Positions 8,843-21,243 of a stretch of DNA of 21,291 nucleotides are shown in pieces. The stretch is from positions 1 through 21,291 of the IMG/VR virus record IMGVR_UViG_3300046096_000210. One strand, given 5' to 3'. This DNA comes from a virus. Positions within the stretch are counted from its first letter, which is position 1. Each line of letters starts with the position of its first letter. Both the position numbers and the translations under genes were made by a program. The notes beneath the pieces are model-generated. The model saw only the letters and a list, made by a program, of their open reading frames with translations, was not told the DNA's origin and did not search any database.

Positions 8843-11800
8843 TGGATAATCCCATAAAAGCTGGTCTCACTTATGATGCGGCTCAACGTCAGAATGTACC
8901 AGAGTTTAATACCACTAATGCTATTTCAGAGCTAGCATTGAGCAATAACCTTTCCTCTGAAGAAGTTGACGCACTAAGACAGCTCACTCCTGAACAATTA
9001 CAACAAGCTCTTCCTCCTGATGTTCTTAAAGCAGGGGATGACGCATTAGCCCAACGTAGAACATACCAAATAGATTCTAACATGAGTCAAGTATCAGCCT
9101 CTGAAGGAGGTACAGGTGTCTTTGGTGTTGGTGATGTTGTTACTAAAGGTATTGGATCATTCAACCAGTTCAGCAACCAAGTAGGTTCAGCCTTTGATGC
9201 TGGTGTGAATGTTGTAGGAAACACCATCTTTGGTAATGATGTTACTAAAGGGATTGCTGCTGGTGTCATAAACTCAGCAGGAGAAACAGTAGAAGCTTTT
9301 GGGGGTAGTGATTACACACCTACGAAAGTTGGTTCAGGTGTTGGAGACTTCACAGAAGGTATCGCAAGGTTTGCTACTGGGTGGGCTGGCTTAGGGAAGT
9401 TTAAACTTGGTACATCCGCATTAGGAGGTGTTGCTACAGGTTTAGTTAAAGGAGCTGTTACAGACTTCGTTCTAACAGACAGAGCTGAAGGTAACTTATT
9501 CGACTTTGCTTCCTCACTTAATTCTGGTATTGATAAATTCATTCCTGAATATCTTAAATCAAGACCAGGACAAGGAGAAGCTGAAGCAGGCTTTAAAGCT
9601 GCTCTAGCTGGTGCTGGTATTGGTGCTGTTGCTGAGGGAACTATCTTCTTAGCTTCACGAGCGTTACGCTCTGCAAGGCTGCTTAAAGAGATGGGTCATG
9701 GAGACTTAGCTGATGAGCTGGTGGCTTCAACCGACCTGAGCAACACAGGCACGGTATCAGGCATTGCGAGAGACCCTGAAACAGGAGTCGTGCTTGCTAC
9801 TTCATCATCCAGCATACCCAATAGTGAAGTATTAAATGCGGTTGAAGCAGAATTAAGTAAACCCAAACCAGATAATGCTAAAATAGCTGAGATTCTTAAA
9901 GCTAGTAGAGACCGTCTGAATAAAGACTACATTAGTAGGGAGCTTGTAGATAAAACAAAAGTTCCAACATTCTCTGATTCTGAAAATAGATACTTTAATC
10001 AACTTGAAAAAAAACGCCAACAACTTCAAAAGAAAGTTGACCGCATCCCAACAGAGTTGAGTAAGGTGGAATCTAAAGCTAGTTCAGCTAACTCTCACGT
10101 CGCTAACACTTCTGAAACGTATAAAGACGTTAAGAAGCTCCTCAACACCGACAAGTCAGACGAAACAGTAGCCAAGGTTTCTGCTCGATTAGCTGATGAC
10201 TGGTCTGCTGGGACGATTAGTGATACTGATGTCCTAGATATGGTAACTGAAGCATCTCAAGGTATTCATACTCCTGAGAGCTTAGAAGCTGCTTTGATTC
10301 GGAATGCTAAGGCTATTAACGTGGTTGAGCAACAAGATGTGCCTGCCTTAGTTGGCAGCATGATGAACTCAACAAAGACTGCTGCAAAGCTAGCTGATGA
10401 AACACTAGCCTACGGGGTGGTTGTTAAGCTTTATCAAAGTAAAATCTTGAAGCAGTTAGACCTCTTTAAGTCCTTTGGGGAGAACGTCTACAAAGACCTT
10501 GAAAAATCTATCATGGATTCCATCCAAGTAGAAGGGGCTTGGCATGACTTAGGAACACCACAAGGTAAGGGGCTACAAACTAGGCAGATTGTTACGGGTA
10601 AAGCTAGAAAGTTAGATAAGCTTAAAGACGCTCCCTTCTCTAATTCAGTAATTAACGCATTGACAGACCCTAAGACTAAGAAGCTTGACCCTAAGAGGGT
10701 GTTAGCCTACGCAGAAGCAAAAGCTAATGACGTAGCTACAGCCACTTTGGTTAAACGCTTTCAGAATGGGTTAGATTATGTTCAGGCTTACAACGTAAAC
10801 TCTATGCTGTCTGGCATATCAACTCAGATGGCTAACATGACCAGCTGGATTTCCACTTATAAGAGACCCTTAGATTTAATTTCTGGCGGTCTTGCTATAG
10901 GAAACAAAGCTGCAGTCTCTGAAGGAATAAACAGGTTACGGTATCTAACGGGTACTGCCCCTATGATTGGCAAAGGAGCTACAGCTCAAGCAATCTCTGT
11001 ATTAAACGCTCACTATGGTAGTGATGATATTTTTAAAGCTGTGGGGAGAGCCTTCCATGGAGAAGGAGATGACTTATTCACCAGCTTGAGTAATCAAGTT
11101 GATAGTAAGGTTAATCACGATAACCCTGTATTTAAAGCCTTATCAATTCCTACTAAGGCTTTGAACGCTATTGATGAATTATTTCAACGGGCTAACTACA
11201 ACGCTCATGTGTACGCTAGAGCTTTAGAGAATGCAGAAGCCTTTGGATTACCTGGGTCTCCTGAACACACCACTCATTTGACAGAAGCCCTCAACAGAGC
11301 TTTTGATACTACCCATGTTCCAGAGCTAATAGAAGCTAAAGCTACAGCCAACGCTTTGAAGATAAGCAAGGAAACTGGGTGGAACTTTGATAGGGTGAAA
11401 GAAGAGCAGGTTAAGATCCTATCGGAGGATTTCAAAACGCTAGGCAAGCCAACCAGTAAAAGTTCGAGAGATTACGCCCAAGCTGCTACGCTGGTATCAA
11501 AGCTAGATGTGAATGATACCTCCAAGACTATGTGGTATAGAGGTGCTGTTGCGTTGAGTGCTGGGGCTAGGAATATGCCTGTATTAGGCAGAGTCTGGAA
11601 GATGTTTCAACCCTTTGAGACTGTGCCTATCAACATGCTTCAAGCAACGATAGAGAACGATCCGCTCCTTATGATGCTAGGTACGTCTACTATAAATAAG
11701 CTCATAGCCAAAGACCCTGAACAGGTGGGTAGGCTCATCTCTGGTACTACCTTGTATACCTTGGTGGGAGCAGGTGTTGCAGCTGGTGTTATTACTGGCG

Positions 11801-14460: not shown

Positions 14461-14463
14461 TTG

Positions 14464-17100
14464 ATGGGGTTCTCATTCACGTTTAATTCAAGTGGTAGTG
14501 GAGTAGGAGCACCTCCAGCTTCCGCCACACCAACGTTCAGTGCTGGAGGTGATACACACACTAATAGCACATCAGTTACTACAAACTATACGGCAAAAAT
14601 TAGTAACTATTCAACATTGAATGCTTTATCTGGTGCTACATGGGCTGCTCCCACAACGAATGTAGGTACTGCTAGCAGAAGTGGTGATAACATTACCGTT
14701 GTTGTACCTGTTGGGTATCAAGGTGATATTAACATAGGTATCGGATTTACCGAAACAGGTAAAACCCAAAGCTTTGGTTTTAAATCGACTACGGCTAGCG
14801 TGGCTACATCGGCTACGCCTGCGATATCAGGTTCTAATACCGTTGTAGAGGGTAATGCGTTAACCTTTACCATTACCGCCCCTCTTTCAGGTACAAGCTA
14901 TGCTTGGTCAGCTAATGAGGGTACTATAACACCAAGCCCTAATACGCAATCTGCGGTATGGTCTCCTGCTTCAACTAGCACAAATCGTAACGCCGTTATT
15001 AGCGTAATTGCTACCGAATCAGGCAAGCTTCCTTCAGCCCCTGCTAATAAGACTATAGGGGTAACGGTTTTCTACTTCCCTGTAACGGCATTAGCTCAAG
15101 ATTTTGAGGCTAAAGGCACTTTAGCTTTTGGCTTTGATGGCTTAGTCCCTGCTTATTCAGGGAATACTTTTAAAATCAAACGACTATCCGATAACACCAC
15201 GGCATCCTTTGGCTTTGCACCCATTAGCAAACAAGCTTTGTTAGCTTCTGCTTTAGCGTGGGCAAATGGTGAAGCGGATATTGTAGAGTTTTTAGACCAG
15301 TTTGCTAGCGGTAAACTGCTTTCAGCGGTGGGTGTTGTTCCTTTTGCTCGGGGTGGTGTCATTCAAAGACAACAGATTCAAGCTGCTCTTTCAGGAGCAA
15401 CACAAGGCTTTATAACACCCGATAACACCAAAGGGTCTGCTACGTGTGATATCAGCTTAACAGGGACGAACTACTTACAATGTACGAATGCCAATTTGGT
15501 AACCAGTCAAGGCATTGAAGTGCATATGCTAATGAGTCCAAAAACTCGAAAGTTTTCAGGGGCAACAGTGGTTAATAACCAGTACGAGCCTGTTGAATGG
15601 GGAGCAGAAGCCGTTAAAGAATGCTACATGGGATACGGCACATCAGGTACAGAGACTAATAGAGTTGCTGTTATTTCAAACTTTGGCACGGCTTCAGCAG
15701 TTTCATTCCGTCGGTTTCCTTCAGTAACTACCGCTTATGCTACCCCCACTACCACGCCCACGATGCACCTTAAGCAATGGGCAAGTCAAGTATTTTCATT
15801 TGTAAGCAACCCGACTGCTGGTGTTACGCAGATTTGGCAAGGGGGCGATTTAGTAGGCTCTGTAGACAATGGTACGCAACTGATGGCGGATGATATGACT
15901 TCAGTTCATCAGCAATTTAGAGTGGGACGGCAAACGACTTCCGCCTTTGCTGAATCTACCTACAAAGGAAACTTCTTGTTTTCTGGTGTGCTTATCACTA
16001 AAACGCTAACTGTAGATGAACGACGCAAAGTACACGAACGATGGAGTGCATATGCTCGGTACAGTCTCTTGCAGAATCAAGCATGGGTTGAGGCTCAATT
16101 TGAAGACTACTTGGTCTTTAAGAATGCGACATCAGCAGGTTTGGCTGGGGCTAAAAACAAGTTCAATCTTGCGTTTAACCAAAGCACGTTTAACGGACAA
16201 AACCCATCTTGGGCTTACAACACCCCCGCTCAAAATGGGTTATCGGGGTTATATTCAAACGCCTTTGATAATATGGCAAACCAGTTTGAAGACATTGGGA
16301 CGGATAAAGTAGGGGGTCAGTTAAGAGCAGGTACGATTGTTACTGTCATCCAAACAGACCCTACTTACAATAGGGGCGATGCCCTAACCGATGTGTTTGC
16401 TTATACCGCCGTATCCCCTACCTTGCACTTGATTACGCAAGAGTTGACTTGGGATCTAAAGGTGGCGATAGACCACAGGGGGTTCAGTCACGTCACTAAA
16501 GCAACCATTAAAGACCCTAACGATGTTTCTGAACGTCAAACCAACTCTTACACCAGTGTGTCGGGTATCACAACCACGCCTTATAATGGAGTAAACCATA
16601 CGTTTGATTATCGGTTTAAAACTATTACGCAAGCGGTTAGTGCGGAAGCTGAAGACAAGTATGACTTTAAAACCCAAGCACAAGGGTTGGAATACATGGC
16701 AACAAAAAACGAGTTCTTGCATTCCAAGCAAGGGACTTACGGTGCAAACTTAGCCCCTTTACCTAGTAAAACCTACGTTATTATTCAAACATGGGAAAAT
16801 AACCCATTGCTCAATGAGAATGGAACGCAAGCTGAAATTGATGAGTATATGCCTAGAGCCAGTAAGACCATAACAGTGTGTCTGCTTAATAACCCTGCTA
16901 TAGGAGGCTTAGATGGTTTCTTTGCAAGTGAAGCACCAACAGGGATGTCTCGGCTACCTGCGTTAGGGTCAAGGCTTGTAGCTCATGCTGATGATAAACG
17001 AACATTTTATGGCACACGCCACTTTTTCGGTGTCATCAACAGAGCATTAAACTCTGTTGAAGTAGCCCAAATGGCATCTAGTATAGGGCAGTTATTATAA
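14464..17100 (+). CDS. Receptor-binding protein with AbfB-like and lectin (LamG/ConA-like) modules
   Basis: 878 aa if begun at ATG 14464; a TTG at 14461 is one codon earlier and both suit the GAGGT at 14449-14453. Residues about 20-205 form two Ser/Thr-rich Ig-like repeats (the second about 118-205). About 217-330 matches the pattern common in phage tip proteins related to arabinofuranosidase-B jelly rolls: AYSGNTFKIKRLSDNTTASFGF, then W.NGEADIVEFLDQF. About 340-535 is a lectin-like module ending in LFSGVLITKTLTVDERRKVHERW, and the C-terminal half ends with a second similar edge, HFFGVINRALNSVEVAQMAS. No catalytic residues can be named; binding of a surface glycan is inferred. Its codons look richer in ACC/ACG and GCC than the neighbours, by eye, which may mean separate origin. 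Confidence 0.78.
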   Translation: MGFSFTFNSSGSGVGAPPASATPTFSAGGDTHTNSTSVTTNYTAKISNYSTLNALSGATWAAPTTNVGTASRSGDNITVVVPVGYQGDINIGIGFTETGKTQSFGFKSTTASVATSATPAISGSNTVVEGNALTFTITAPLSGTSYAWSANEGTITPSPNTQSAVWSPASTSTNRNAVISVIATESGKLPSAPANKTIGVTVFYFPVTALAQDFEAKGTLAFGFDGLVPAYSGNTFKIKRLSDNTTASFGFAPISKQALLASALAWANGEADIVEFLDQFASGKLLSAVGVVPFARGGVIQRQQIQAALSGATQGFITPDNTKGSATCDISLTGTNYLQCTNANLVTSQGIEVHMLMSPKTRKFSGATVVNNQYEPVEWGAEAVKECYMGYGTSGTETNRVAVISNFGTASAVSFRRFPSVTTAYATPTTTPTMHLKQWASQVFSFVSNPTAGVTQIWQGGDLVGSVDNGTQLMADDMTSVHQQFRVGRQTTSAFAESTYKGNFLFSGVLITKTLTVDERRKVHERWSAYARYSLLQNQAWVEAQFEDYLVFKNATSAGLAGAKNKFNLAFNQSTFNGQNPSWAYNTPAQNGLSGLYSNAFDNMANQFEDIGTDKVGGQLRAGTIVTVIQTDPTYNRGDALTDVFAYTAVSPTLHLITQELTWDLKVAIDHRGFSHVTKATIKDPNDVSERQTNSYTSVSGITTTPYNGVNHTFDYRFKTITQAVSAEAEDKYDFKTQAQGLEYMATKNEFLHSKQGTYGANLAPLPSKTYVIIQTWENNPLLNENGTQAEIDEYMPRASKTITVCLLNNPAIGGLDGFFASEAPTGMSRLPALGSRLVAHADDKRTFYGTRHFFGVINRALNSVEVAQMASSIGQLL

Positions 17101-18072: not shown

Positions 18073-18339
18073 GTGTCAACAGAAGACGACTTAGCCTACC
18101 TACACGATTTAGTTGTAGGAGGCTTAACTAAAGATTTACAAGATGCAGAGAAGAGAACCCCTGCTCACTACAAAGCAGCTATGGAACTTCTCAAACATAA
18201 TAAGATTTCAGCACTAAGTAACCCAGGTAGTCAATTAAGCAAGCTAGCAGAAACGCTAGAAGGCTTGTCAGATGCCTCAGGTGAGTTCCTTTCACAGTCT
18301 GATATAGAGAATGTAATACAGCTTAGAAAGAGGGTATAG
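18073..18339 (+). CDS. Terminase small subunit, T7 gp18-like
   Basis: DNA-recognition subunit of the packaging motor. 88 aa versus 89 aa in T7 gp18. Begins with GTG at 18073, with AAGAAGGGG ending 8 nt upstream. Helical throughout, with THE family-like central TPAHYKAAMELLKHNKISAL segment (about 29-48) and a C-terminal ENVIQLRKRV. Its TAG stop shares the final base with the GTG start of the large subunit (TAGTG), so the two are probably coupled. Call rests mainly on length, order and coupling to terL. Confidence 0.85.
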   Translation: MSTEDDLAYLHDLVVGGLTKDLQDAEKRTPAHYKAAMELLKHNKISALSNPGSQLSKLAETLEGLSDASGEFLSQSDIENVIQLRKRV

Positions 18340-20060
18340 TGGACGCATACAGACCACCTATCCCAACACGCTACGCTCAGTTCAGAAACTTCATGAGAGA
18401 CGTATTCGTTGAGTTCTACAACTGGCAAGAGCCTACTTGGGTGCAGAATGAAATAGCAGACCAGATTCAGTACGGGACAGACCGTGAAATCATCATGGCA
18501 TATCGTGGTTGTGGTAAGTCAAGTATCCTACAGTGTTATGCTGTGTGGTGTTTGATGCTAGACCCACAGAAGAGTATCCTTATTGCTTCTGAAACTACTG
18601 GACTAGCTAAGATATTCGTAGCTCAGATGAAGAGAATCATCAAAGATTACAGACCCTGTCAGTGGCTATACCCTGATGATGATCAAATCAACGAAGCAAG
18701 CAGGTTCTACGTTAAGCCTTGTACCAAGTCAGCTACCATATCAGTTAAAGCTACCTCTATTGGGTCAAGTATCACAGGCTTACGGGCTGACTTGATTATT
18801 GCAGATGACGTTGAGACTGCTAGGAACGCTCTCACCCTTGAGAGTAGAAGTAAAATTGGGTTATCCTTTGAGGAATTTTCCTCTATCCTTCGTACCCGTG
18901 GACGTATTGCTGTACTAGGAACACCTCACAGCCACGACTCCACCTACTTAGTGTTAGAGAAGAAGGGTTACACCTGTAAAATCTACCCAGCGGAAGTGCC
19001 TGACCCAGTCAGGCTGAAGCGTTATGGTGATAGAATCTCAGAAACCTACTTGAAGATGCTTGATGCAGGCATAGAACCATCAACACCAGCTGACCCTGAA
19101 CGCTTAGACTCCTTTGATTTAACAAAGAAGAAGATAGAGTTCAGACCAGCTGGCTATAGCTTACAGTTCCTACTAGATACTTCCCTCTCAGATGAGTTAA
19201 AGTATCCGTTGAAGCTTAAAGATTTAATCGTGATGGACTTAGACATCAACACAGCACCAGGTAAGATGAGTTGGACTAACTCTCCTGAGTATAAGATTAA
19301 GGATATTGAAGCTATAGGCTTTGGGTTTGATGCTTATTACCGCCCTATGCTTGTTAATGAATCAAGTATTACTGACTATGACAGCTCTATTCTCTATGTC
19401 GACCCTTCAGGCAGAGGGGCAGATGAGACAGCCGTAGCTGTTGTTAGAGCAGCAGCAGGTAGGTTGTTCATACCAAAGGTGAAAGGGATGCTAGGAGGTT
19501 ACACAAGAGCCAATCTGGAAGCTATCTCACATCTTGCTAGGCAGTATAAAGTCAACAAGGTAATAATTGAATCTAACTTTGGTGATGGGATGTTCAATGA
19601 ACTTCTTAAACCTGTATTGAATAGCATCTACCCTTGTATGATTGAAGATGTTAAAGTATCTCAGCGTAAAGAGCTAAGGATACTAGATACACTTGAACCT
19701 ATCATGCAGCAGCATAGGCTAATTATCAGTAGAGAAGTCATCTTAGAAGACCTGGCTGATATAGCAACCTACGGGCAGACTATGGATGCTCCTCAGCATT
19801 ATAGTTTATTCCATCAGATGACTAGACTCACTAAAGAGAGAGGTTGCTTATCTCACGACGACAGACTGGATGCTCTCGCTGGTGCTGTAGCTTACTTAAC
19901 TAAGTTCATGTCTATTGATCCAGACATTGATATTTCAAGACGTTCTAAAGCCTTAGAGCTATTAGAGCTTGAACAAGATAGAGCTTACATGAGTAAGCTG
20001 ATGAGGCGTGCTGATGACTTTAACATCCCAAATCCTAACTGGCTAGGAGATGATGATTAA
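18339..20060 (+). CDS. Terminase large subunit (packaging ATPase and nuclease), T7 gp19-like
   Basis: ATP-driven motor that pumps concatemeric DNA into procapsids and cuts it. 573 aa versus 586 aa in T7. ATPase domain: Walker A YRGCGKSS (55-62, Lys60), Walker B DLIIADDVE (151-159), coupling motif GTPH (194-197). Nuclease domain: LYVDPSGRGADE (352-363, Asp355), IIESNFGDG (409-417, Glu411) and HDDRLDALAGA (506-516, Asp507/Asp508), the acidic triad of RNase H-like terminase nucleases. Start codon is GTG in the TAGTG overlap with the small subunit. The acidic C-terminus (GDDD) is where T7-type terminases contact the portal. All key residues are present, so it is probably active. Confidence 0.96.
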   Translation: MDAYRPPIPTRYAQFRNFMRDVFVEFYNWQEPTWVQNEIADQIQYGTDREIIMAYRGCGKSSILQCYAVWCLMLDPQKSILIASETTGLAKIFVAQMKRIIKDYRPCQWLYPDDDQINEASRFYVKPCTKSATISVKATSIGSSITGLRADLIIADDVETARNALTLESRSKIGLSFEEFSSILRTRGRIAVLGTPHSHDSTYLVLEKKGYTCKIYPAEVPDPVRLKRYGDRISETYLKMLDAGIEPSTPADPERLDSFDLTKKKIEFRPAGYSLQFLLDTSLSDELKYPLKLKDLIVMDLDINTAPGKMSWTNSPEYKIKDIEAIGFGFDAYYRPMLVNESSITDYDSSILYVDPSGRGADETAVAVVRAAAGRLFIPKVKGMLGGYTRANLEAISHLARQYKVNKVIIESNFGDGMFNELLKPVLNSIYPCMIEDVKVSQRKELRILDTLEPIMQQHRLIISREVILEDLADIATYGQTMDAPQHYSLFHQMTRLTKERGCLSHDDRLDALAGAVAYLTKFMSIDPDIDISRRSKALELLELEQDRAYMSKLMRRADDFNIPNPNWLGDDD

Positions 20061-20082
20061 GCTCACTACGCCAACGCTAGAC

Positions 20083-20127
20083 CCCTAGGATTCTATAGGT
20101 GCTTTACCTTCATGAAAAATCCTAGGG
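20083..20127. repeat. Inverted repeat with 10-bp perfect arms after terL
   Basis: CCCTAGGATT (20083-20092) and AATCCTAGGG (20118-20127) are exact complements separated by 25 nt. The loop contains TCTATAGG and a smaller AGGT/ACCT pairing. No T-run follows on either strand, so it is not a normal intrinsic terminator; a packaging or end-processing signal is possible. Confidence 0.6.
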
Positions 20128-20133
20128 CAGTTT

Positions 20134-20166
20134 AGCACTCATAGAATTCTATAAGGAGTGAGTGCT
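20134..20166. repeat. Inverted repeat AGCACTCA/TGAGTGCT enclosing a palindrome
   Basis: AGCACTCA (20134-20141) and TGAGTGCT (20159-20166) are exact complements. The 17-nt interior begins with the perfect palindrome TAGAATTCTA (20142-20151) and includes the AATTCTATAAGGAG promoter-like motif. The nested symmetry suggests a protein-binding or DNA-hairpin site. Confidence 0.6.
20141..20158 (+). promoter_or_regulatory. Promoter-like motif AGAATTCTATAAGGAG
   Basis: One of four related sites in the terminal region (others at 20087-20100 and 20516-20530 on +, 20536-20552 on -). Aligned on TCTATA they share (A)ATTCTATA followed by purines; the minus-strand copy reads AATTCTATAGGGAG, close to the CACTATAGGGAG core of T7-family phage polymerase promoters. 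I did not see AATTCTATA elsewhere in the window. Confidence 0.35.
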
Positions 20167-20314
20167 TGGAAAATTTGCTATAGGTTTTTGGTGGTATAAC
20201 GCTTGATGTAGGAAGCAATTTACCCCCGTACCCCTACTATAACAGCCACAATAGGCATTATAGGCACTGAAACTACACTATAAAACCTGTAAAGCCTTGC
20301 TATCATTGGCATTA

Positions 20315-20337
20315 ACAAGGGATTAATAATCCGTTGT
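20315..20337. promoter_or_regulatory. Quasi-palindromic operator-like site with a -10-like TATAAT downstream
   Basis: Symmetric about A20326: ACAA-G-GGATTA and TAATCC-G-TTGT, with one mismatch pair in 11. A perfect TATAAT follows on the + strand at 20353-20358, but no good -35 hexamer is placed for it. The half-site ACAACGGATT (minus strand 20337-20328) recurs exactly at 21256-21265. Confidence 0.35.
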
Positions 20338-20457
20338 ATAACTAAATGAGACTATAATAGCACAATTTTGATGTTACCATACGTTCATGCTATAAAGTGT
20401 GTGTGTAGATGTGGTGTCTATTTTTACCAAGTCAAGCCAACAGCAGAAGCAAGACCA

Positions 20458-20487
20458 ACTCAAGCAACTCAAACTCAAGCAACTCAA
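20458..20487 (+). repeat. Tandem 15-bp repeat in a CAAG-rich tract
   Basis: ACTCAAGCAACTCAA occurs twice head to tail (20458-20472, 20473-20487). Degenerate CAAGC-type copies extend from about 20427 to 20510. T7-group terminal repeats are flanked by arrays of short repeats, which is the comparison I would make. Confidence 0.7.
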
Positions 20488-20517
20488 ACAATGCCAAGCC
20501 AATAGCAACTCCCTTAG

Positions 20518-20549
20518 AATTCTATAGTTGAAACACTCCCTATAGAATT
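20518..20549. repeat. Inverted pair of the AATTCTATAG motif
   Basis: AATTCTATAG (20518-20527) and CTATAGAATT (20540-20549) are exact complements with a 12-nt spacer. As promoter cores they would point towards each other; as a hairpin or dimer-binding site they form a 10-bp symmetric element. It lies 38 nt beyond the end of the minus-strand gene that follows. Confidence 0.6.
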
Positions 20550-20586
20550 ATATAAACTCCCCTAATCTTTAAAGACGCTTAATTAA

Positions 20587-20994
20587 TTAAGTAGAACGAT
20601 GCTTAACCCTAGTTAAGTCTGGCTCAATTTTCTTATATTTAGCCCAATTAGCCCAATCGTGATATTGTCCTGTAATAGCCCCAAAAGGGCAATTATTACC
20701 AGTTGATTCGGCTTTAATGATAATCTTTTGTGAATTGATAGTTAAAAACCTATCGCAATACCAAACATTAGTATTCATTACAGAACGATATTTATTATGA
20801 TGCCATGTAAGAACCGTGTACCCTAATATGGTTTTTTCTTCATCGGGCATCCCCATTTGATTGATAGCAACATCAATAGGAGTATCAAGCCATGATGCCA
20901 TAATCTTTTCAATCTGATAAGCATTAACAACTGATACAGGGATTAAGGCAACAACAACAAAAACTAATAAAGTACTAATTACTCTCTTGTTCAT
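20587..20994 (-). CDS. Secreted/periplasmic small protein with two cysteines, unknown function
   Basis: 135 aa. Residues 1-25 are a clear signal peptide: MNKR, a long hydrophobic core (VISTLLVFVVVALIPVSVV) and an A25 cleavage site of the V-N-A type. There is no lipobox Cys, so the mature protein should be periplasmic and soluble. Cys80 and Cys102 could form a disulphide. The SWLDTPIDVAINQMGMPDEE segment (about 34-53), a TW strand, then WYCDRFLTIN and STGNNCPFG resemble small exported proteins of Gram-negative bacteria (SWxGxPxxxLxxxxGxP ... GNNC pattern), which I know only as uncharacterised. It starts in an ATGA overlap with the upstream minus-strand gene, so the two form an operon, reading against all other genes here. 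Superinfection exclusion or alteration of the host surface is speculation. Confidence 0.75.
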   Translation of the reverse strand: MNKRVISTLLVFVVVALIPVSVVNAYQIEKIMASWLDTPIDVAINQMGMPDEEKTILGYTVLTWHHNKYRSVMNTNVWYCDRFLTINSQKIIIKAESTGNNCPFGAITGQYHDWANWAKYKKIEPDLTRVKHRST

Positions 20995-21170
20995 TTTAAT
21001 TCTTTCTCTATTATTTCATACTGCCCCTCTGCAAGTTGTTCTAAAAACTCAACTCTGCTAGGAATCCTATGTTCATAACACATGTCTTGTAACCATTCCC
21101 AGCAAGCATCTGAAAGCCTCATGTTTCGTGGCTTTACAACTCCTCTATCTCTTTTATCGTGATATATCAT
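20991..21170 (-). CDS. Ribbon-helix-helix-like 59-aa protein, possible regulator
   Basis: Start chosen at 21170. The frame is open back to an ATG at 21233, but the -10 box of its own promoter (21200-21195) would then lie inside the gene, so the shorter form is preferred. The product is basic at the N-terminus (DKRDRGVVKPRNMRLSD), then a probable strand (about 13-20), helix (21-35), turn IPSR (36-39) and helix (40-58): the arrangement of CopG/Arc-type ribbon-helix-helix proteins. The ribosome binding site is weak (AAAG), in keeping with a near-leaderless short 5' end. It is coupled by ATGA to the secreted protein gene. A self-regulating repressor of the divergent promoter is a natural guess, but DNA binding is not shown. 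Confidence 0.68.
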   Translation of the reverse strand: MIYHDKRDRGVVKPRNMRLSDACWEWLQDMCYEHRIPSRVEFLEQLAEGQYEIIEKELK

Positions 21171-21194
21171 AATAAGCTTTACTACTTTATTTGA

Positions 21195-21221
21195 ATTATA
21201 ACAAAAATTACCTATTGACAA
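21195..21221 (-). promoter_or_regulatory. Sigma70-type extended -10 promoter for the minus-strand operon
   Basis: Reading the minus strand: TTGTCA (21221-21216), 15-nt spacer, TGTTATAAT with perfect TATAAT at 21200-21195 and the extended -10 TGn. Transcription would start near 21188, about 18 nt before the preferred ATG at 21170. The short spacer is offset by the extended -10. Confidence 0.65.
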
Positions 21222-21243
21222 TATCGTTACCATAGGTTACTAT
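21215..21243 (+). promoter_or_regulatory. Sigma70-type promoter reading out of the window to the right
   Basis: Perfect TTGACA at 21215-21220, 17-nt spacer, TACTAT at 21238-21243 (4 of 6). Its -35 box overlaps the -35 of the minus-strand promoter by five bases, so the two divergent promoters share one face of DNA. No start codon is seen before the window ends at 21291. Confidence 0.6.

Follow-up and report, generated by a model that had tools for sequence, protein, structure and literature searches.

The late end of a T7-like virus genome carries a leftward two-gene cassette that is a real, probably horizontally acquired moron with a product that can now be recognised. As judged by its sequence, the exported protein of this cassette belongs, as a divergent member, to phrog_3716, a family of bacterial envelope proteins. 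The window, by which we mean the whole stretch of DNA analysed (21,291 bases), is a linear virus record carrying the late half of a T7-like genome, with the genes for portal, capsid, tail, internal proteins, tail fibre, amidase, TerS and TerL on the plus strand. The portal and internal proteins were named from position and size, not from search, and TerS, TerL and the tail fibre were recognised by their profile matches in Pfam (PF11123, PF22530 and PF03906, respectively). The initial annotation had described two minus-strand open reading frames (ORFs), 20587-20994 (135 aa) and 20991-21233 (80 aa as listed), that are joined by an ATGA overlap and are alone in reading leftward; both ORFs and the overlap are present, and the other accepted genes (17/17) are all on the plus strand. 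The pair had also been placed beside the genome end. It lies beyond TerL on a contig that is a linear 21-kb fragment, and the end in question could be either one. The features of the locus are:

18339 to 20060, plus strand: terminase large subunit of the T7 gp19 type, identified by profile matches, the anchor upstream of the cassette.
20061 to 20586: 526-bp non-coding stretch past TerL, a candidate site of the genome terminus (terminal repeat).
20086 to 20155: near-palindrome around ATAGAATTCTATA, two copies, on the TerL side.
20515 to 20556: two more copies of the ATAGAATTCTATA-type near-palindrome, on the cassette side.
20587 to 20994, minus strand: exported-protein gene, 135 aa, with signal peptide 1-25, mature part 26-135, and Cys80 and Cys102.
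20991 to 21170, minus strand: small partner gene, 59 aa (MIYHDK...EKELK), upstream of the exported gene, its start chosen from the promoter position.
21171 to 21233, minus strand: N-terminal extension of the 80-aa ORF, read from the sequence as probably untranslated promoter and leader.
21195 to 21221, minus strand: leftward promoter, TTGTCA, 15 bp, TATAAT, with a TG extension, from a consensus scan.
21215 to 21243, plus strand: rightward sigma-70-like promoter, TTGACA, 17 bp, TACTAT, back-to-back with the leftward one and facing the contig end.

The bacterial-type promoter with an extended −10 that had been proposed for the cassette was found by consensus. It reads TTGTCA-15-TGTTATAAT at 21221-21195, and in the scan used, TTGTCA/TGnTATAAT was the sole pair in the window joining such hexamers to the extension. 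The 80-aa ORF exists as annotated, but this best promoter falls inside its frame; therefore, the start is likely the ATG at 21170 and the first gene probably encodes 59 aa rather than 80. A short palindrome, TGATATATCA, overlaps the start of the 59-aa gene. The phage-type promoter motif TTCTATAGG occurs across the whole window at a frequency no higher than chance, and TTCTATAGGGAG, at 20533-20547 on the minus strand, looks like the start of a T7-type promoter facing TerL. Rfam and tRNA searches of the window and a PADLOC search for defence systems gave no match. The GC content of the cassette (34.8%) is lower than that of all 390 same-length windows of the rest (mean 42.3%). The consensus promoter, the opposite transcription, the low GC content and the phage relatives in the same post-TerL place bear out the proposal of a cargo unit. 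An ORF of 135 aa arose in 3 of 1000 Markov shuffles of the 1.2-kb region; beyond these statistics, it is the homology to the family that marks the exported ORF as a real gene.

The exported protein begins with a predicted signal peptide, MNKRVISTLLVFVVVALIPVSVVNA, followed by YQ, that has a basic n-region, a strong h-region and a V-N-A site, and a rule-based export scan classed it as the SPI type with cleavage after A25. In a simple scan of the window, 20587-20994 was the only convincing exported ORF, the other match, at 11725, being internal to gp16-like coding sequence. A lipobox is absent from the window protein, which has no cysteine ahead of residue 80. The predicted Sec signal, the two cysteines and the envelope nature of the relatives agree with the earlier description of an exported two-cysteine protein, whose site of action is probably the periplasm.

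Close relatives of either cassette protein were absent from viral_contigs, genome_contigs, phages and plasmids, and the family was entered by profile search. A weak tblastn match pointed to RHEph01 gp53, a reference member that matches phrog_3716 at E 2.4e-44. The window protein matches the phrog_3716 model at E 4.1e-6 over residues 22-67 only. A profile of relatives built without it scores it at 36 bits, with 9.9 bits for the best of 2000 shuffles of its mature part. Core matches at E 0.5-5 (Acinetobacter phage Acjo_20, Synechococcus phage S-H9-1 and others) were rejected as chance, RHEph01 excepted. Further members were found in RHEph21, two plasmids, Uetakevirus ZX5, the Yersinia phages YeP4-6 and a Klebsiella prophage-type phage, those of ZX5 and of the Klebsiella and Yersinia phages being single cargo genes. 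A bacterial-genome scan, seeded with the window and Klebsiella sequences jointly, found a Betaproteobacterial MAG, a Vampirovibrio plasmid and a cyanobacterial MAG (UBA6984) as the best matches (24%, 27% and 25% identity; E 2e-11 to 1e-6, computed at fixed database size), and BLASTP of the window protein against the Vampirovibrio member gave 27% over 126 aa at E 2e-11. In these matches the last cysteine lies within GNNCPF or GNSCP. A scan with the window, betaproteobacterial and Vampirovibrio members yielded no further viral carrier, and no Pfam model matched the family members tested.

Across the whole domain the family shows the signature W-x-G-x-P ... G-x-P ... G ... W/Y ... C ... I ... G-N-x-C. 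G48 is present in 57/57 aligned rows and P50 in 54/57; because C80 and C102 are both invariant (57/57 each), a Cys80-Cys102 disulfide is likely. Position 37, usually G in the family, is D in the window protein. A lipobox is found in 34 of the 57 rows, the window and Vampirovibrionia rows having a plain Sec signal instead, and membership of the family does not depend on it; the relatives are lipoproteins or Sec-secreted proteins. Aligned all together, the members proved too diverse for pattern scanning, and this alignment was set aside. Sampled genomes carried members in 8 of 398 cases for the phylum of the Enterobacter genome and, with a broader alignment, in 25 of 369 for its class; for the phylum of the Vampirovibrio genome the broader alignment gave 12 of 292, the weakest two or three of which look like chance. 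The family is a patchy set of mostly chromosomal envelope proteins in Pseudomonadota and Vampirovibrionia. The relatives of the exported protein speak against the lack of conservation that had been considered at the outset, and phrog_3716, a family without known function, gains a likely fold, a likely compartment and relatives.

Several members have distinctive surroundings. On the Vampirovibrio chlorellavorus plasmid (L115:2896-4263), the envelope domain is fused C-terminally to PDZ and trypsin-like protease domains, an HtrA-like protein with an unusual domain order. In the Vampirovibrio phylum sample (L136-L149), there are one or two members per genome, with plain Sec signals, and these members share KK.VNP.N..W as a C-terminal motif unseen elsewhere in the family. 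In one gammaproteobacterial group (L166, L168, L170), a conserved 413-aa gene immediately precedes the family gene, and in L151 and L157-L159 the gene follows an apparent ribulose-phosphate epimerase gene.

In the tree, the window protein sits on a long branch within bacterial rows (Beta, Vampirovibrio and Vampirovibrionia; support 97/85), apart from the Paadamvirus and enterobacterial phage clades. Since a common clade of window and Paadamvirus proteins was weakly rejected (p-AU 0.037), the capture was likely independent of that in Paadamvirus. The Vampirovibrionia and betaproteobacterial members (L114, L115, L116, L136-L149) share this clade with the window protein, are its best sequence matches and have its GNNCPF motif, and the Vampirovibrionia members also have its Sec signal without a lipobox. 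Unlike the window gene, they lie on bacterial contigs and have no small partner, and L115 is the protease fusion.

The AlphaFold model of the exported protein, made with 12 aligned sequences, superseded a poor single-sequence model (pLDDT 47). Its core is confident (pLDDT block means of 79-95, about 90, for residues 31-70 and 81-100) and consists of two helices and three to four strands, excluding the C-terminal 30 residues; this speaks against the disordered product that had been considered at the outset. In VIA-align, E. coli BamE chains took ranks 2-18 with Z 6.9-7.8 over 71-72 residues, and OsmE reached Z 6.7, where Z < 8 can reflect a common arrangement and, counting against the likeness to BamE, Z 7-8 is reachable by chance for fold-poor models. 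In the Foldseek search of the PDB, the T6SS immunity protein BtiO came first (E 0.014, TM 0.41-0.52), followed by BamE, all at E > 0.01; among viral structure models, a protein annotated SmpA/OmlA came second at E 2e-4. Pfam SmpA_OmlA (PF04355) did not match the exported protein up to E 10, and BamE was absent from its PDB sequence matches. We conclude with moderate confidence that the model represents a BamE-like fold, not membership of the BamE family. The window protein resembles E. coli BamE/SmpA-OmlA and OsmE in this predicted fold and in likely compartment, the periplasmic side of the envelope, but differs in sequence, in its predicted disulfide and in having no lipid anchor, and it need not join BAM.

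Envelope cargo occurs after TerL in more than one lineage of T7-like phages. In the Paadamvirus phages RHEph01 and RHEph21 and in Rhizobium prophage-type records, a family member lies ~200 bp past TerL. It is followed by variable membrane proteins or a weak AbiJ-like match, and we therefore regard the post-TerL stretch as an accessory site. In the same stretch of RHEph01, gp056 (L083:4505-5002) has a weak AbiJ N-terminal match (E 0.005) and is a possible defence gene. The members of Paadamvirus (RHEph01 gp53, RHEph21 QXV74672) and of the Rhizobium T7-like prophages are, like that of the window, phrog_3716 proteins encoded directly after TerL, exported and having the same two cysteines. They differ from it in a lipobox, a 30-residue longer Ser/Thr/Tyr-rich loop and rightward orientation. 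Conservation of the pair is not supported: the exported protein has relatives after TerL in Paadamvirus, but no relative has the partner. Among 80 TerL-related viral loci (38-44% identity to the window TerL), the family was present in 0/80; therefore, conservation among phages does not extend to the cassette. Both the family and the place after TerL have precedents, and what is new here is the non-lipidated phage version and its partner gene.

The carrier had been called a lytic podovirus. A strictly lytic carrier is not supported: temperate T7-like phages are among its nearest relatives when capsid and terminase are compared, the records L098-L100, which are of isolate genomes, having been read as prophages. 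By capsid, the nearest cultured phages are LUZ100 and Limnohabitans phage YIMV22061 (31%), and LUZ100 has an integrase. In known integrase-bearing T7-like phages, the integrase lies near the RNA polymerase gene (PMC10134795). The half-genome that would hold any integrase is absent from our record, and this phage may be lytic or temperate. The locus is a further indication that a lytic cycle is not the only lifestyle of many T7-like phages.

The reading that we judge best overall, to which we give somewhat less than an even chance as a whole, is an independently transcribed moron encoding a soluble periplasmic BamE-fold binding protein, with exclusion or envelope modification as the leading candidate function. 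Within it, the part comprising the moron and the periplasmic BamE-fold protein is highly probable, and superinfection exclusion as the function is tentative. The cassette would be an accessory transcription unit that the phage acquired from bacteria. Its product would be secreted by Sec, cleaved after A25 and soluble in the periplasm, where the mature protein is predicted to fold as an alpha-alpha-beta-beta-beta(-beta) domain of the BamE/OmlA type with the Cys80-Cys102 disulfide. Like others of its fold, it may bind an envelope partner, most likely an outer-membrane protein or a BAM-linked factor, or alternatively the trans-periplasmic ejection proteins of an incoming phage. Such binding would change the host envelope during infection or lysogeny and make superinfection harder, and the small upstream protein would regulate the cassette. 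Exclusion by small exported phage proteins has been described for Ltp and the soluble periplasmic Glo of K139 (PMC3952083) and for Cor (PMC11436027). Ltp (TP-J34), Glo (K139) and Cor (phi80/N15) resemble the window protein as small exported phage proteins from accessory units, and Glo also as a soluble, periplasmic product of the kind predicted here. Unlike them, the window protein has a T7-like carrier; it shares no recognised homology with them, and exclusion by it is conjectural. The absence of the lipid anchor of the other phage members also counts against our preferred reading. Neither literature on SmpA/OmlA morons in phages nor a functional datum for any phage member of the family was found.

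Concerning timing and place, and compatible with any proposed function, the cassette may be an early-infection unit at the left genome end, which we regard as a serious though not the favoured possibility. The terminus would lie in 20061-20586 and the cassette would enter first; with the rightward promoter at 21215, it would make up a divergent control region for early expression, regulated by the small protein. The back-to-back promoters fit this arrangement, as do the near-palindromic repeats flanking the non-coding stretch. Similarly, the terminal repeat of LUZ100 starts ~400 bp past TerL and is followed by host promoters, and the circular record of YIMV22061 has an unrelated leftward lipoprotein gene (L090:4598-4975) between TerL and rightward early genes. 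On the other hand, the candidate terminus is inferred, and the contig ends 48 bp past the promoter. The Limnohabitans lipoprotein was also considered as an RcsF relative, which is plausible by eye but not supported. The four ATAGAATTCTATA-type near-palindromes form two pairs (20082-20556) that bracket ~360 bp of non-coding DNA past TerL and, by analogy with LUZ100 and the Limnohabitans phage, may be terminal-repeat borders.

As to function, a factor for host-envelope fitness or lysogenic conversion, with no anti-phage role, is somewhat unlikely. The phage would then carry a spare or variant form of a host envelope protein, which would make the outer membrane more stable or lessen envelope stress while the cell is infected or lysogenic. 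Such a role would suit the chromosomal envelope setting of most relatives (the 25/369 and 12/292 genomes above) and the resemblance of the fold to BamE and OsmE, both of which serve envelope maintenance. Other envelope lipoproteins are also carried by temperate T7-like phages, such as the RcsF-type lipoprotein of G11 (PMC10142737). Phage carriage is, however, sparse and patchy, with no link to a phenotype. Considerably less probable is a periplasmic inhibitor or immunity protein, whose BamE-type fold would block a periplasmic enzyme such as a competitor effector or the muralytic enzyme of another phage. BtiO as the first PDB match points this way, and the Vampirovibrio fusion to a PDZ and trypsin-like protease suits a binding or sensing module, but no effector gene lies nearby and the BtiO match is weak. 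Finally, a chimera, in which assembly or a prophage border has placed 0.7 kb of bacterial DNA at the end of the phage sequence, is very improbable: the lower GC content and the bacterial closest relatives in the tree would fit, but low-GC morons are common, family members lie directly after TerL in cultured T7-like phages, and TerL is not beside the attachment site in known integrase-bearing T7-like phages.

A broader idea, which we put forward as speculation with little probability, is that T7-like phages have repeatedly and independently captured BAM-associated or BAM-like envelope proteins near their genome ends (BamE-like here and in Paadamvirus, RcsF-like in G11). Expressed first, these would serve in the periplasm as decoys or as modulators of outer-membrane biogenesis to remodel the envelope against rival phages; the present case would include a small autoregulator.

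The small partner had been called RHH-like. This likeness was by eye only; there was no match in Pfam, PHROGs, NCBIfam or PADLOC, and a significant homologue was absent from every library and collection searched, with chance-level matches only in 593 genomes. An overlapping small upstream gene of this kind was also absent from the other family members seen. The segment RNMRLSDACWEWL...PSRVEFLEQLAEGQ of the small protein resembles cyanobacterial ORFs that are themselves borderline RHH; one of them shows 39% identity over 36 aa and matches RHH_4 only at E 0.013. The small partner is a candidate regulator of the cassette. Elsewhere in the window, the tail fibre gene is followed at 14461-17100 by a gene for an 879-aa protein with a weak PKD-like match and no PHROG match, which is possibly a second receptor-binding protein.
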